From: Lutibacter agarilyticus | GTDB taxonomy: Bacteria > Bacteroidota > Bacteroidia > Flavobacteriales > Flavobacteriaceae | Assembly (NCBI RefSeq): GCF_900188235.1 | Contig: NZ_FZNT01000011.1 | Location: 1 to 64,000, forward strand | Length of the DNA stretch: 64,000 bases | Reading direction: 5' to 3' | Shown here: piece after piece, positions 5,201 through 33,292 of the stretch | Position numbering within the stretch: the stretch's first letter is position 1 | Layout: each line of letters begins with the position of its first letter | Notes under the pieces: model-generated | What the model was told of the DNA's origin: nothing | Database searches by the model: none | The model's input: only the letters and a program-made list of their open reading frames with translations | Program-made: the position numbers and the translations under genes

Positions 5201-5900
5201 ATTTTCGGTGTTCTTTTTGACGGCAATCAACTGTCATACTAAACACACCCCTAGCCCCTCTCAAGAGGGGAATTATACTTTCGCCATGCTTAACTTGTTT
5301 CAGCATCTCATCATAATCGTTCCGGATTTCAATAGTAAAGATCTCCAATCAAGTTGAGAATGACGGTTCATTTCATCGTCACCCTTAGCTTGACTGGGGT
5401 CTCACTCATTAGAACTCCAATGTAAAAGATCTCCAAATCGAAGATTCACGAACTCTTTAGCTTAAAATAAAAAAGAAAAGTGAGTAATCAAGTTGGAGAT
5501 GACTTGACGTAGCTATACCGTCACTTCGAGTGATTTAACGCAGTGAAACGTAGTAAAATTGTATCGAGAAGTAATCTTTCACATTGAAACTCCAATGCAA
5601 AAGATTCCCGCATCCGCGAGAATGACGTGTTTGTTAGCTATCAGCTGTTAGCTTTTGGCAGTTGGCAATCACTATTCACCGTTCAGCATTTACTGTTAAG
5701 CCAGCGAAGCAACTTCTTACATCTCACTAAACAATACATACCCCTAGCCCCTCTCAAGAGTTGACTGAGCGTAAAGAAAATGTTCAGTGAACATTTTTAG
5801 CGACAGGGCCTGGTGGCGTGTGGAAGAAAATCAGCATAAAACTTCAATGCAAAAGATCTCCGACTATGGCTAAGTTTTTTTTACATTTACAAACAAATCA
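5201..5900. repeat. mosaic repeat field before the orphan nucleotidyltransferase
   Basis: Holds CCCCTCT-CA-AGAGGGG, a 50-base insert with core AAATCGAAGATTC (about 5434-5485) inside a TCTCCA..TTGGAGATGAC unit, GATTCCCG..CGAGAATGACG units, GCGAAGCAACTTCT and one copy of the AGT-loop hairpin element (5766-5822). Much of it is repeated at 7130-7560. No gene seen. Confidence 0.75.
5766..5822 (+). repeat. AGT-triloop hairpin element, copy A
   Basis: Hairpin 5777-5797 with arms AAAATGTTC/GAACATTTT and loop AGT, preceded by GAGCGTAAAG and followed by TAGCGACAGGGCCTGGTGGC. It interrupts a CCCCTCTCAAGAG palindrome unit. Same family as the copies at 27668, 31068 and 31141. Confidence 0.75.
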
Positions 5901-27474: not shown

Positions 27475-27887
27475 TTATTTACTTAATACTTTTTTTCTTA
27501 ATCCGAATATTCTTTTTTGTAAACTTATTATATTTTTTAATAGCTCATCAAAATTAAGTTGAGAACTATACTTTCTTTTATTGGCTATTCTCAATTGAGT
27601 TTCGAGTTCAAAACAGGAACCTAAACTAATTTCTAAAAACCTTGCAAAATCTTTTTGAGAAGTTCGCCCTCCCCGCCATCTGGCTCGTTCTCTAAAAAAG
27701 TCCACTGGACTTTTTCTTAACGTTCCGTCCTCTCTGCAATATTTGAAGGAATTGAAACTGCTGAACGCGTAATCTGAGAACTCAATGAATATTTTTCTTC
27801 AGAAGGAAAATTATCAACCATTGTATAAATAGCATCAACCATGTTCATACTATCAATCCACACATCATATTCCCTAAAATTTCTCAT
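27475..27887 (-). pseudogene. four-helix-bundle (S23-type) protein gene split by a hairpin element
   Basis: From an ATG at 27887 the minus strand reads RNFREYDVWIDSMNMVDAIY, FPSEEKYSLSSQITRSAVSI and PSNIAE, the classic start of the four helix bundle family (TIGR02436). It then enters foreign sequence and hits a stop. Past the insert another frame resumes with GRTSQKDFARFLEISLGS and CFELETQLRIANKR to a stop at 27475. The insert of about 66 bases is the AGT-loop hairpin element, placed at the AEG..GRTS turn. Rejoined, the gene would be about 115 codons. The last gene-like frame of 76 codons is only the second half. Confidence 0.85.
27668..27725 (-). repeat. AGT-triloop hairpin element, copy B
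   Basis: On the minus strand: AACGTTAAG, then a hairpin (27695-27715) with arms AAAAAGTCC/GGACTTTTT and loop AGT, then TAGAGAACGAGCCAGATGGC. It interrupts the four-helix-bundle gene. Confidence 0.8.
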
Positions 27888-27889
27888 TG

Positions 27890-28402
27890 CCTTGGTCTTC
27901 GTCTTAGTCTTTGTTTTCGTTTTTGTTTTTGTTTTGGTCTTAGTTTTTACTTCTCGTTTCTATTCAACAGATTACTTCGTCGTACCCTCCTCGTAATGAC
28001 GGTTCACTCTTTACTCTTCACTGCTGAGCCTGCGAAGCAACTTCTCACTTCTCACTTCTCACTTCTATGCTACAGATCCCCATCAAGCTGAAGATGTCAC
28101 ACTGAGCTTGTCGAAGTGTTGTTTCAGCATCTCATCTTTTATACTTCCAATCAAAAGATTACTTCGTCGTACCCTCCTCGTAATGACGGTTCACTCTTTA
28201 CTCTTCACTGCTGAGCCTGCGAAGCAACTTCTCACTTCTCACTTCTCACTTCTCACTTCTCACTTCTCACTTCTCACTTCTCACTTCTCACTTCTCACTT
28301 CTCACTTCTCACTTCTATGCTACAGATCCCCAGTCAAACATAGGATGACGGTTCGTCTTAGTCTTTGTCTTCGTTTTGGTCTTCCTCTTTATTTTCCTCC
28401 AC
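27890..28402. repeat. low-complexity and heptamer repeats between pseudogene and fcl
   Basis: Begins with a GTTTT(T/C/G)-type run, then two copies of a block AGATTACTTCGTCGTACCCT that leads to ACTGCTGAGCCTGCGAAGC and heptamers. The first copy has three heptamers near 28037-28063; the second is the long array at 28227-28310. No gene seen. Confidence 0.8.
28227..28310. repeat. (ACTTCTC)12 array downstream of fcl
   Basis: Twelve perfect ACTTCTC heptamers in a row, ending in ACTTCTATGC. The reverse complement of the same heptamer forms the array at 29466-29598 on the other side of fcl. Confidence 0.95.
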
Positions 28403-29353
28403 TTACATTTTCACTTCTTTAAACGCTTCTATATTTTTTAAAAACCAATCATAGGTCTTATTTAATCCTTCATCTAAACTGGTACGTGCTTGCCAACCTT
28501 CATTTTTTAGTTTAGACACATCCATTAATTTTCTTGGTGTACCATCTGGCATTGCACTATTCCAAACAATTTCACCTGTATGCCCAACAACTTTTTGAAT
28601 TTTTTCAGCTAAGGCTTTGATGGTTAAATCGCTTCCACAGCCTACATTGTACAAATGTTCAGTTAGTTTGTGTTCAAATGCAAAACAAACTGCTTCAGCC
28701 ATATCATCTACAAATAAAAATTCTCGCATAGGCGTTCCTGATCCCCATAGTTCAACGGGTGTATTGCCATTTTCTTTTGCTTCGTGAAATTTACGCAGCA
28801 TTGCTGGCAAGACGTGTGATGTTTTTAAATCGAAATTGTCATGTGTGCCGTATAAATTAGTAGGCATTAAACTAACATAATCTAAACCATATTGTTTACG
28901 AATGGCTTCACAAGCTTTTACACCTGAAATTTTTGCAATAGCATACCATTCATTGGTAGGTTCTAAACTTCCGGTTAATAAGGCTTTTTCTTTTAAGGGT
29001 TGTGCTGCTAATTTTGGATAAATACAAGAACTTCCTAAAAAAATAAATTTCTGAATACCTGTTTCAAAAGAGCCATTGATTAAGTTGTTTTGAATCAACA
29101 TATTATCCATCAAAAACTGGTATGGATACGTGTTATTTGCTAAAATACCTCCAACTCTGGCGGCGGCATCAATAACAACTTCTACCTGTTCACTCTTTAA
29201 AAAATCGTTGACATCTGCTTGATTTCGTAAATCTAACTCTTTACTGGTTCTTCCAACTAAATTGGTATAGCCTTTACTTTGAAGATTTCTCCAAATGGCA
29301 CTGCCTACCATTCCTCTATGGCCAGCAATGTATATTTTTGAGTCTTTATTCAT
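28403..29353 (-). CDS. fcl: GDP-L-fucose synthase
   Basis: 316 residues, full length. The Rossmann motif is IYIAGHRGMVGSAIWR (GxxGxxG), followed by RVGGILANNTYPYQFL, FLGSSCIYPK, the catalytic Tyr/Lys pair in EWYAIAKISG and MPTNLYGTHDNFD. It performs the 3,5-epimerisation and 4-reduction of GDP-4-keto-6-deoxymannose, completing GDP-L-fucose with gmd. It is separated from gmd by 1.1 kb of repeats and a pseudogene, so it has its own transcript. Heptamer arrays lie on both sides of it. Confidence 0.93.
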   Translation of the reverse strand: MNKDSKIYIAGHRGMVGSAIWRNLQSKGYTNLVGRTSKELDLRNQADVNDFLKSEQVEVVIDAAARVGGILANNTYPYQFLMDNMLIQNNLINGSFETGIQKFIFLGSSCIYPKLAAQPLKEKALLTGSLEPTNEWYAIAKISGVKACEAIRKQYGLDYVSLMPTNLYGTHDNFDLKTSHVLPAMLRKFHEAKENGNTPVELWGSGTPMREFLFVDDMAEAVCFAFEHKLTEHLYNVGCGSDLTIKALAEKIQKVVGHTGEIVWNSAMPDGTPRKLMDVSKLKNEGWQARTSLDEGLNKTYDWFLKNIEAFKEVKM

Positions 29354-29361
29354 AATATAAA

Positions 29362-29410
29362 TTGACAGATTGTCAATAGTTTAGTTACGCAAATTTTGAT
29401 TGCAAATATA
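29362..29410 (-). promoter_or_regulatory. candidate fcl promoter with inverted repeat
   Basis: On the minus strand TATATTTG (29403-29410) fits the TAnnTTTG -7 box. Between it and the fcl start codon lies the perfect inverted repeat TTGACA-GAT-TGTCAA (29362-29376). A convincing -33 box is not visible. The heptamer array starts about 55 bases further upstream. Confidence 0.4.
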
Positions 29411-29465
29411 ACCTTTCTTTTAAATTAAGAAGAAGGATTTTGGATTAAATTGGGGGTTAGATGTT

Positions 29466-29598
29466 AGAAGTGAGAAGTGAGAAGTGAGAAGTGAGAAGTG
29501 AGAAGTGAGAAGTGAGAAGTGAGAAGTGAGAAGTGAGAAGTGAGAAGTTAGAAGTTAGAAGTTAGAAGTTAGAAGTTATAAGTTATAAGTTATAAGTT
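29466..29598. repeat. 19-unit heptamer array upstream of fcl
   Basis: Eleven AGAAGTG, five AGAAGTT and three ATAAGTT units without a break. The ordered drift of the unit along the array suggests growth by slippage. In reverse complement the first type is CACTTCT, the same heptamer as at 28227-28310. Confidence 0.95.
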
Positions 29599-29599
29599 A

Positions 29600-30186
29600 G
29601 ATATTAGGTATTAGATTTGTACAATGGCTTCGCTGGCTCAGTATTTAGAACTAAAAAACCGTCATTCCCAACTTGATTTGGAATCTTTTGCATTGGTGTT
29701 TAAATGTAAAAGACCTCCAGTCAGGCTGAAGGTGACGATGAAATGAAACTTTCATTTCAGTGAAAACGGGAATCTTTGGCTTTGGAGCTCAAAACAACTT
29801 TATTCTTTTTTGCATTGCCCAAAAAAGAACCAAAAAAGTCTAGTCTGATGAAGATTTCTTTAAAATTCAATCCTCAAAAAAGACATGCGCTGAACTCGCT
29901 GTGCTCAAACAGCACCGCCTGTTTTCTTTTTCTTCGGAAGTATTTTCTACAGAAATATTCATAGGACATCCAAAAAAACCGTCATTCCCAACCCTCTACC
30001 CTCTGCTGAGCGGATTCGAAATGTTGATTAGGAATCTTTTGCATTGGTGTTTAAATGTAAAAGACCTCCAGTCAAGCTGAAGGTGACGATGAAATGAAAC
30101 TTTCATTTCAGTGAAAATGGGAATCTTTGGCTTTGAAGTTCAAAACAACTTTATTCTTTTTTGCATTGCCCAAAAAATAACCAAAA
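29600..30186. repeat. two copies of a 0.34-kb repeat
   Basis: GGAATCTTTTGCATTGGTGT followed by GTAAAAGACCTCCAGTCA, TTTCATTTCAGTGAAAA and TTTATTCTTTTTTGCATTGC occurs at about 29678-29830 and again at about 30030-30180. The first copy continues into a unit with GCGCTGAACTCGCTGTGCTC. The 63-codon frame here is not a gene. No other gene seen. Confidence 0.75.
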
Positions 30187-30923
30187 AAATCTAGTCTGAT
30201 TTTATTTTTCTACAAACCTACTTAAAAAACGTTACCCACCAATTCCAGACCGCTACGCTCTTTGGAAAACCCGCCATCCAGCGCTACATTTTTTAGTTGT
30301 TTGTAACGAAAAATTAAATAGGACACTTCTTTGATATTAGTGGATTTAGGGATTAACTTTTGAGCCAGTGAAATAGTTTCATACTTCTTACCGATTATTA
30401 CACACCCCTAGCCCTTCTCAAGAGGGAAATGAATTTGAACCACAAAACAAACAGATTTCCAGTCAAGCTGGAAATGAGGTATGTTTTGAACTGTCTTTGC
30501 GAGGGCGTTTATAAAGTGCAACGATATAAACAACTGCGGCAATCTCAATGTAATAGAACGTAATTAACCTTTGAAATAACAAACTAACAAATTACATTTA
30601 ATTGTTTTTCTTCCTTCTTTTCCATTGATGAAAAGAACCAAAAATCTAGGCTTACGAAATAAGTACTAAATTTATTACTTGAAGGCTAAATTTTAGGAAC
30701 TCACTACGTTAATTGTTGTAAATTTGTTGCATACGTGGTGTTCAAACAACCTAAAATTTTACGCCTTCTGCACTGCAAATTTTACGTCCTTTTTTCGATA
30801 GGCCGTTTAATTTAAATAATTTGCTGTAGTTACTTTTCAATTACCTCTTTTTTTATTGAAACTTCGCAACAAAATATAAGTTTAGTAGAAACGGTTGGGT
30901 GTAACGAAAAATTAAATAGGACA
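30187..30923. repeat. 0.74-kb direct repeat, copy 1
   Basis: Runs from AAAATCTAGTCTGATTTTA to ACGAAAAATTAAATAGGACA and is nearly identical to 32557-33292. It contains smaller units: the TTTCCAG palindrome, CCGCT(A/G)CGCTCTTTGGAAAA and TTTTACGCCTTCTGCACTGC. No coding frame. Confidence 0.85.
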
Positions 30924-31067
30924 GTTTTCAAAACATCCTTTTTCAAAACGACTATTTACTTTTGGTGGGACTCTTTTTGTAAGAATAGTGCAGCCAAAGC
31001 TCAGAGATTCAGCGACTGCAAGGAGCGCTGAGTTTGGCAAACGGTGCTTGCAATTCCTACAAGGCTG

Positions 31068-31130
31068 GAGTGTTAAAAAATGTTTGAGAAACATTTTAAC
31101 GATCAGGCCGGGGTGCGCTAGGGCTTCTTT
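31068..31130 (+). repeat. AGT-family hairpin element, copy C
   Basis: GGAGTGTT, hairpin 31077-31097 with arms AAAATGTTT/AAACATTTT and loop GAG, then AACGATCAGGCCGGGGTGC. The loop differs (GAG). It lies head to head with copy D. The 78-codon frame over 30912-31148 is a translation of this element pair. Confidence 0.65.
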
Positions 31131-31140
31131 GGTTGTCCAA

Positions 31141-31197
31141 CGCGCCACCTGGCTCCATCGCTAAAAACAGTTACTAACTGTTTTCTGAACGCTAGGC
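31141..31197 (-). repeat. AGT-triloop hairpin element, copy D
   Basis: On the minus strand: AGCGTTCAG, hairpin (31164-31184) with arms AAAACAGTT/AACTGTTTT and loop AGT, then TAGCGATGGAGCCAGGTGGC. Inverted relative to copy C, ten bases away. Confidence 0.8.
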
Positions 31198-31268
31198 CCT
31201 GGGCAATCAAAGAAATGAACAGAAAATATCTTTCTTATTCTTTTTTTCATCGATAAAAAAAGAACCAA

Positions 31269-31635: not shown

Positions 31636-31878
31636 ATGGGAAAAAACACATCAATATCAATCGGTAATCATTTTGAGGAATTTATTCAAAATGAGATTAA
31701 ATCTGGAAAATATGGTTCTGCAAGTGAAGTTATTCGTTCTGCTTTGAGACTTCTTGAAAGAGAAGAAAGAAAAGAAAGAGCACTAATTAAAGCTCTAGAA
31801 ATTGGAGAAAAAAGTGGGTTTGTTGAAAATTTCAATCCAAAAGAACATTTGAAAGAATTACACCGTAAACACTTATGA
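31636..31878 (+). CDS. parD: ParD-family antitoxin
   Basis: 80 residues. N-terminal ribbon-helix-helix: SISIGNHFEEFIQNEIKSGK, YGSASEVIRSALRLLEREE, the standard ParD (CC2985-type) DNA-binding half. The tail (about 45-80) is charged and would wrap the toxin: GEKSGFVENFNPKEHLKELH. It binds and blocks ParE and, as a dimer, represses the pair's promoter. Its last four bases overlap the toxin start (ATGA). The pair is in a repeat field between copies of a 0.74-kb repeat, as expected of a mobile or addiction locus. Confidence 0.93.
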   Translation: MGKNTSISIGNHFEEFIQNEIKSGKYGSASEVIRSALRLLEREERKERALIKALEIGEKSGFVENFNPKEHLKELHRKHL

Positions 31879-32177
31879 GTAAAAATAAATATCGCATAAG
31901 TGAACAGGCTATAAATGACTTGAATGACATTTGGATTTACACATTAAATAAATGGTCTAAAGAACAAGCTGATAGATATTACGATTTGATAATTAGCGAA
32001 ATTGAGTTTATTTCTGGGAATTTTTTGACTGGAAAATCAGCGGAGCAAACTCGAAAAAATTATAGAGTGACTAAAATAAAATCACATTTAATTTTTTATA
32101 GAAAAATAGAAAACAACATTGTAGAAATAGTAAGAATTTTACATCAAAGAATGGATCTCAAAAAACGAATTGATTAA
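31875..32177 (+). CDS. parE: ParE-family toxin (RelE/ParE fold)
   Basis: 100 residues, normal length. YRISEQAINDLNDIWIYTLN and WSKEQADRYYDLIISEIEFI are the two N-terminal helices of ParE; YRVTKIKSHLIFYRKIENN is the central beta hairpin; IVRILHQRMDLKKRI is the C-terminal strand with the typical RxLH. ParE proteins poison DNA gyrase. No damage seen, so the module should be active. Translation is coupled to parD by overlap. Confidence 0.93.
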   Translation: MSKNKYRISEQAINDLNDIWIYTLNKWSKEQADRYYDLIISEIEFISGNFLTGKSAEQTRKNYRVTKIKSHLIFYRKIENNIVEIVRILHQRMDLKKRID

Positions 32178-32556: not shown

Positions 32557-33292
32557 AAAATCTAGTCTGATTTTATTTTTCTACAAACCTACTTAAAAAA
32601 CGTTATCCACCATTTCCAGACCGCTGCGCTCTTTGGAAAACCCTCCATCCAACGCTACATTTTTTAGTTGGTTGCAACGAAAAATTAAATAGGACACTTC
32701 TTTGATATTAGTGGATTTGGGATTAACTTTTGAGCCAGTGAAATAGTTTCATACTTCTTACCGATTATTACACACCCCTAGCCCTTCTCAAGGGGGAAAT
32801 GAATTTGAACCACAAAACAAACAGATTTCCAGTCAAGCTGGAAATGAGGTATGCTTTGAACCGTCTTTGCGAGGGCGTTTATAAAGTGCAACGATATAAA
32901 CAACTGTGGCAATCTCAATGTAATAGAACGTAATTAACCTTTGAAATAACAAACTAACAAATTACATTTAATTGTTTTTCTTGTTCTTTTCCATTGATGA
33001 AAAGAACCAAAAATCTAGGCTTACGAAATAAGTACTAAATTTATTGCTTGAAGGCTAAATTTTAGGAACTCACTACGTTAATTGTTGTAAATTTGTTGCA
33101 TACGTGGTGTTCAAACAGCCTAAAATTTTACGCCTTCTGCACTGCAAATTTTATGTCCTTTTTTCGATAGGCCGTTTAATTTAAATAATTTGCTATAGTT
33201 ACTTTTCAATTACCTCTTTTTTTATTGAAACTTCGCAACAAAATATAAGTTTAGTAGAAACGGTTGGGTGTAACGAAAAATTAAATAGGACA
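32557..33292. repeat. 0.74-kb direct repeat, copy 2
   Basis: Near-identical to 30187-30923 over its whole length, with scattered single changes. Followed by the CTCCCTTTAGGGCTGGGG unit and a short stretch to the end of the BamA-like gene at 33464. Confidence 0.85.

Follow-up and report, generated by a model that had tools for sequence, protein, structure and literature searches.

Four copies of a hairpin element in Lutibacter agarilyticus

The DNA analysed here, called the window below, is a stretch of 64,000 nt from Lutibacter agarilyticus (assembly GCF_900188235.1, contig NZ_FZNT01000011.1, positions 1 to 64,000). It covers a polysaccharide gene region, judged by eye from the starts of the proteins, and carries many repeats besides the one studied, a hairpin element of about 63 nt. 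A sequence-only reading of the window had described four hairpin copies that share one plan, and this proved correct: a single covariance model matches all four (E 5e-17 to 3e-8). They are confirmed as members of a hairpin family of Bacteroidota that is real, dispersed and strongly covarying. Two models were used: R1, built from six copies (A, B, D and three others of the same genome), and R2, a broader model built from 85 divergent copies. The copies in the window, with their R2 E-values, are the following.

5762..5824, plus strand: copy A (E 1.8e-14); its first base is T, not G
27668..27730, minus strand: copy B (E 5.3e-17); within a broken 23S-IVP gene, in the same sense as the gene
31063..31123, plus strand: copy C (E 3.1e-8); the most diverged of the four, with the loop GAG
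31137..31199, minus strand: copy D (E 3.0e-15); tail to tail with C, 13 nt between them

Copies A, B and D are part of both models and C is in neither, so that the match to C is the independent one. The genome contains ten places matched by R1 (E ≤1) and ten matched by R2 (E ≤0.001); the R2 places include all four window copies, and eight of them are on the window's contig. With up to three mismatches allowed, a 20-base consensus for the 3' half, derived from the four window copies themselves, finds exactly these four in the 64 kb, compared with a mean of 0.02 and a largest count of 1 in 100 shuffles. Parts of the first description were amended. The hairpin cores stand where it had placed them, but the unit of about 63 nt is longer than the proposed plan GCGTTnAG...GGTGGCG. 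The four arm sequences quoted are all present, the third and fourth belonging to D and C, in that order, and C and D, said to stand head to head ten bases apart, in fact face each other with their 3' tails.

Structure and covariation of the element

The unit runs from GG[AG]C to NNNGG and consists of a 9-bp stem, outer pairs and a 3' tail. Across 118 flanked copies, conservation extends from about position 1 (GG) to position 63 (GG), and is weak outside these limits except beside the ends. The loop had been taken for a constant AGT; in these copies it is mostly NGT, with A in 84, G in 23 and T in 11 at position 25, followed by G in 111 and T in 113 of the 118. The consensus of the 85 divergent copies, in a gap-free alignment, is GGGCnGAGCGTTAAG-AAAATGTCC-AGT-GGACATTTT-TAGCGAAnGAGCCAG-CTGGCGCGnnGG.

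Compensatory change between the arms, first noticed in the four copies, was found throughout the family. In alignment A4 (125 matches, 104 of them distinct, fitted to the structure of the model), 98.7% of the cells of the 9-bp stem pair and both sides have changed in 144 cases, against 29.2 in shuffles; when the stem partners are slid by 1–3 columns, 37–58% remain paired. The perfect 9-bp hairpin that had been proposed as the structure holds as its stem, but pairing and covariation reach beyond it. Outside the stem, mutual information marks the pairs 5-44, 4-45, 8-40 and 9-39; it also shows purines being exchanged at positions 3 and 46. Alignment A5 was made from the 85 divergent copies with MAFFT, the structure not being supplied; its rows were picked by an expression requiring at least seven of the nine stem pairs, which favours the stem but not the outer pairs. 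In A5 the stem, the outer pairs and pairs 1-49 and 2-48 together are 97.3% paired, with 220 double-side changes compared with 59.0 in shuffles, and with 32–48% pairing for slid partners. Pair 5-44 occurs as CG, AU, GC and UA.

Unaided, RNAalifold returned the stem and pairs 4-45 and 5-44 and moved the inner pairs to 9-41, 10-40 and 11-39, which leaves the inner pairing unsettled. Tandem G-A pairs are conceivable between the GA at 6-7 and that at 41-42. A kink-turn was considered and no claim is made for it, the bulge beside these possible pairs being 1 nt and that of a kink-turn 3 nt.

On the written strand, G-T combinations outnumber A-C combinations at 8-40 (27 to 1), 4-45 (6 to 0) and 47-56 (14 to 1), suggesting that it is this strand which folds. 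Pairs 48-55 (3 to 2) and 49-54 (2 to 4) have no G-T excess. Taken singly, the four window copies fold in an only mildly special way: z-scores are –1.3 to –2.4 as RNA, copy A having a different best fold, and –1.8 to –3.8 as DNA, with the stem present in all four.

Distribution of the element

The expectation that covariance searches would find many copies in the genome and its relatives was borne out, and the pairs covary in the copies found. R1 matches 32 of the 60 genomes in a sample of relatives, the window's own counted, and 30 of these 32 are among the 37 Lutibacter genomes sampled. Lutibacter genomes hold 0 to 49 copies each, counts that are lower bounds with at most 93 candidates scored per genome. 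A scan of the GTDB genome collection with an exact pattern gave at least 118 stretches; among the matches listed, all are titled as Bacteroidota groups (judged by name), and Flavobacteriaceae, Bacteroidales, Cyclobacteriaceae and Chitinophaga are represented. In a sample of the phylum, with 33 candidates scored per genome, R2 matched sporadically, in 5 of 158 genomes including the window's own. The exact pattern had no match in viral contigs, and a BLAST search of plasmids and phages with one copy as query gave none. Most copies in three complete genomes are directed away from dnaA; several of these copies are mutual duplicates, and GC skew follows gene direction.

Insertion sites

The flanks of the copies are unrelated to one another. 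For 49 of 208 copies, both flanks match one other place, in order. Twelve of these are comparisons of element with element in tandem and three with a negative gap were set aside, leaving 34 usable comparisons, several of which come from one repeat family and represent correspondingly fewer independent events. Where the element stands, the 34 related sequences without it have 0–21 nt; at least 3 nt are present in 33 of the 34, and 11 of these have 8 nt. No target-site duplication was found in the 34 comparisons. The clearest site reads CCAAAGA[GCGCAGCG]GTCTGG; here two distinct versions of the element share one position within a repeat (L035/L106 and L042/L130). At L142:7391 a copy is nested in the stem of another copy, with 8 nt replaced.

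At 93 distinct sites outside Lutibacter, the three bases 5' of the element are A/G (84%), C/G (85%) and A (81%). Of the 110 distinct sites in Lutibacter, 61 are next to a member of three other repeat families, defined by patterns of our own making; at 36 of these 61 the neighbour is a palindrome, CCCCCGAAGGGGG.

Two further arrangements were seen. In tandem arrays at five loci (L033, L120, L136, L143 and L144) the second unit is without 3–4 nt of its 5' side, giving the form GGCA-GTTAAG, and seems to share the GG of the preceding unit. In two Polaribacter loci (L159 and L169) a coding domain is repeated in tandem, and several of its units carry the element at the same position.

Interrupted genes, orientation and close pairs

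Copy B lies inside a broken gene. It splits a gene for a 23S_rRNA_IVP (four-helix-bundle) protein, the two Pfam halves meeting at position 51 of PF05635.

27717..27887, minus strand: N-terminal part of 23S-IVP (PF05635 positions 2-51, E 1e-16); the open reading frame (ORF) enters copy B for a few codons
27475..27705, minus strand: ORF that includes the C-terminal part of 23S-IVP (PF05635 positions 51-105, E 2.8e-13); its first codons are in copy B

Other copies stand in group II introns, between matches to group-II-D1D4-3 and group-II-D1D4-1 at L045, L165 and L168 and beside D1D4-1 at L185; L168 also has a second intron without the element. Intron reverse transcriptase frames contain copies at L182 and L253, and at L230 as judged by the similarity of its flank to the reverse transcriptase frame of L165. 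RHS-like frames are also hit (by eye). Copies within open frames lie in the sense direction in 5 of 5 cases where each side has 60 or more open codons, in 8 of 9 at 50 codons and in 17 of 27 at 40, the last being near background. Splicing or translational bypassing was tried as an explanation and rejected: as judged by eye, the removal of a fixed length of 63 nt brings the frame back at L182:6042, and fails to do so at L182:6605, copy B and L159.

Orientation was scored for 148 copies with an ORF of at least 120 amino acids on both sides. Both neighbouring genes are in sense for 80 of them and in antisense for 23; the neighbours are convergent for 33 and divergent for 12. Adjacent ORF pairs at the same loci, taken in the loci's own direction as background, number 130, 106, 68 and 68, respectively. 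The left gene ends at a median of 143 or 43 bp from the copy. The ratio of sense to antisense is 52 to 8 in Lutibacter, a figure inflated by the non-independence of the copies, and 28 to 15 elsewhere (p 0.066).

An organisation into REPINs, as pairs of repetitive extragenic palindromic (REP) sequences are called, had been suggested by copies C and D, and was not borne out. Neighbouring copies at most 400 bp apart form 13 distinct pairs, all direct, and R2, which sees degenerate copies too, found 14 of 15 such pairs to be direct in 21 stretches, C and D being the sole inverted pair. As close pairs are direct, they are not REPINs.

Search for a mobilising enzyme

The observation that no transposase lies in the window holds for the Y1 type, the only one looked for. 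In the genus, the Y1 family PF01797 matches 20 of 38 genomes. The proposed linkage to a REP-associated tyrosine transposase (RAYT) was not found. Beyond 30 loci around PF01797 genes of the genus, 22 further Y1/RAYT loci were inspected, 20 of them taken by place and mostly encoding RAYT-like proteins of about 180–207 amino acids. They contain two weak matches and two convincing copies, L082 (E 2e-8) and L098 (E 2e-5), at distances of about 730 and 790 bp from the gene. Fourteen loci found with a RAYT profile, built from ten RAYT proteins, gave a single weak match (E 0.016), at a place already found among the 22. These loci are a part of all the Y1 genes in the phylum. A RAYT or Y1 transposase acting in cis is not supported by these loci, as the element flanks none of the genes inspected.

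Other palindromes flank RAYT genes in 17 + 5 loci read by eye, and are also found at the gene in 7 of 21 IS200-like loci, those with a located ORF. RAYT-like genes of Lutibacter and two other genera (L081–L099, L333, L336, L341 and L342) have flanking palindromes of their own, several of which end in AGNNGG or AGCGG, like the stem of the element.

Of 18 chosen genomes, 9 have a match to the RAYT profile, which is weak in two. PF01797 is absent from four of six other genomes that bear copies; in these four, the RAYT profile found nothing in three and a 59-amino-acid fragment in the fourth. Among Lutibacter genomes that hold 10 copies or more, PF01797 matches 15 of 16, and among those with fewer, 5 of 21 (p 3e-5, a value that ignores phylogeny and assembly quality); the sixteenth high-copy genome, G018, has a divergent RAYT. 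The presence of Y1 thus tracks copy number, which leaves room for a Y1 enzyme that would act in trans. The reverse transcriptase family RVT_1 does not track copy number (present in 6 of the 16 genomes rich in copies and in 9 of the 21 others) and is absent from the four genomes with most copies (G005, G022, G010 and G034); for want of this association, a reverse transcriptase was rejected as the driver.

Comparison with known systems

The family is REP-like in kind, yet it lacks the features tested of tagged REPs, REPINs, RAYT-flanking REPs and miniature inverted-repeat transposable elements (MITEs). Like REPs with their TnpA_REP (RAYT), it consists of short dispersed hairpins, many per genome and mostly intergenic. 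It differs in its length of 63 nt, its extended imperfect stem, the absence of REPIN pairs except C/D, and the absence of a flanking RAYT from the loci inspected; the palindromes beside the RAYT genes of the genus are sequences other than the element. According to the respective papers, GTAG- and CGTC-tagged REPs are palindromic, the CGTC type also occurs in Bacteroidetes and some lie inside genes (PMC3733652), and the structures that flank the RAYTs of subclass 2.6, from Bacteroidetes, are atypical and lack GT[AG]G (PMC6006769). Neither GT[AG]G nor CGTC is present at the ends of the element in the consensus of the 85 divergent copies. The subclass 2.6 REPs were set beside the element by this description (PMC6006769).

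MITECca01 of the Bacteroidota symbiont Cardinium is about 240 bp long and has the terminal inverted repeats of the resident IS982 (PMC9769881). Like the element, it is non-autonomous, multi-copy and from Bacteroidota; the consensus of the element is without terminal inverted repeats and has no known parent, although a parental insertion sequence was not systematically sought. Other papers deal with palindromic candidates in cas genes (PMC9067536) and with RepRanger (PMC12306157). The text of PMC2267715 contains none of the Bacteroidetes terms looked for. No description of the element was found in the open-licence PMC literature, taken without supplements, which does not rule out that one exists.

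Elements of the IS200/IS605 type have subterminal hairpins at their ends and a target motif at the left flank, and make no duplication. The left-flank motif of the present element is compatible with a single-strand element of this kind; it differs in that no TnpA gene lies between or beside the copies and in that a few target bases are usually lost.

The earlier remark that no named family of this form was known stands with respect to Rfam, of which no family matches the whole element. The window has no Rfam match at gathering thresholds, and six loci searched at E up to 1 have none that covers the element; group-II-D1D4-1 reaches into two of the intron copies, over their final 5 and 17 nt.

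Other features of the window

A 14-bp direct repeat (CACGTCTCACGTCT / CACTTCTCACTTCT, with the complement) forms intergenic arrays at 1617-1729, 28193-28319 and 29428-29623, the latter two forming together a long inverted repeat. Another dispersed palindromic repeat (family D3), AGATTTCCAGTCAAGCTGGAAATGACG, occurs at 13 places between 64 and 32877. The intergenic block 30346-30905 is duplicated at 32716-33274, 2.37 kb away, with 97–98% identity. Two adjacent small ORFs at 31636-32177 on the plus strand resemble, by eye, a toxin–antitoxin pair of the ParD/ParE type.

Discussion

Unrelated flanks, constant ends, related sequences without the element and interrupted genes indicate that the element is mobile. 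We somewhat favour reading it as a REP-like, non-autonomous mobile element of Bacteroidota, about 63 nt long, that a trans-acting enzyme would move in the form of a folded strand; single-strand movement and the trans-acting enzyme are inferred by analogy with HUH/Y1 systems. In such a mechanism, the strand written GG[AG]CNGA[AG]CGT-hairpin-TAG[CT]GA...GCCAG would fold into a long imperfect hairpin, which the enzyme would recognise by its shape more than by its sequence. The folded strand would then be moved or copied to new places, often right after a short purine – G/C – A motif, and insertion would usually replace a few target bases and make no regular target-site duplication. A broader proposal, which we put forward tentatively, is that the element may represent a widespread minimal mobile class of Bacteroidota, a 63-nt strand recognised through its pairing and its G-A-rich internal loops and inserted after purine – G/C – A by an enzyme of still unknown type that replaces a few target bases without duplicating them.

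Several observations weigh against the mobile-element reading. Mobility is read from the sites and movement itself was not observed; the sequences compared are paralogous repeats, not orthologous empty sites; the replaced length varies from 0 to 21 nt; and one locus, L216, resembles a 7-nt duplication (by eye). Neither PF01797 nor the RAYT profile has a match in the window's genome, the element is in none of the 30 loci around PF01797 genes of the genus, and the failure to find a mobilising gene beside it in the loci inspected counts in the same direction. As to the fold, G-T is not in excess of A-C at 1-49 (2 to 2), 2-48 (3 to 3) and 5-44 (1 to 3), and for the nine stem pairs pooled the ratio is 8 to 6; with G-T so scarce in the stem, the complementarity of the arms could stem from hairpin-templated correction instead of selection. 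Further pair types in A5 are also no more numerous than in shuffles, 310 of 500 of which reach the value.

The best placed of the alternatives, though in our judgement an improbable one, is a REP family moved in trans by a Y1 transposase (RAYT or IS200-like TnpA) whose gene lies away from the copies or has been lost, for example in the window's genome. It would explain why PF01797 accompanies high copy numbers (15 of 16 genomes, and 5 of 21 at low copy number), the sixteenth genome having a divergent RAYT, and a conserved left-flank motif without duplication fits insertion of the IS200/IS605 type; some RAYT-side palindromes, moreover, end in CC-AGNNGG or AGCGG, to be compared by eye with GCC-AGNNGG in the element. 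It is harder to reconcile with the lack of the element at the flanks of any inspected RAYT or Y1 gene, with the four of six other copy-bearing genomes that have no PF01797 match and to which the RAYT profile adds one 59-amino-acid fragment, with the absence of a single Y1 type common to the high-copy genomes, and with the absence of the REP guide tags GTAG and CGTC.

Selection could instead keep the copies as a functional RNA of 3' untranslated regions, a terminator or stabiliser, whose spread would be secondary. The prevalence of copies between two sense genes (80 of 148, 23 being antisense), the proximity of the left gene end (median 143 or 43 bp) and the sense direction of all five copies that have 60 or more open codons on each side would agree with this. 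We consider it quite unlikely, given that the excess outside Lutibacter is 28 to 15 (p 0.066) and that Lutibacter copies are not independent, that the in-gene excess fades at looser cut-offs (8 to 1, then 17 to 10), that congeners hold anything from 0 to 49 copies, that copies break genes, and that stem G-U is no commoner than A-C and RNA folding z-scores are modest (–1.3 to –2.4). We give very little weight to a retroelement origin, with copying from RNA by the reverse transcriptase of a group II intron or by another one: sense copies do occur in group II introns (L045, L165, L168 and L185) and in reverse transcriptase frames (L182, L253 and, by similarity, L230), but RVT_1 is no more frequent in high-copy than in low-copy genomes (6 of 16 and 9 of 21) and is missing from G005, G022, G010 and G034.

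The covariance model can be used to annotate intergenic repeats that are now unnamed. If the mobile-element reading is true, the element would provide a small, testable system for the recognition of structure over sequence in DNA movement, it would account for the broken IVP and reverse transcriptase genes in these genomes, and many genomes of Bacteroidota would hold a mobile hairpin without a recognised mobilising gene.

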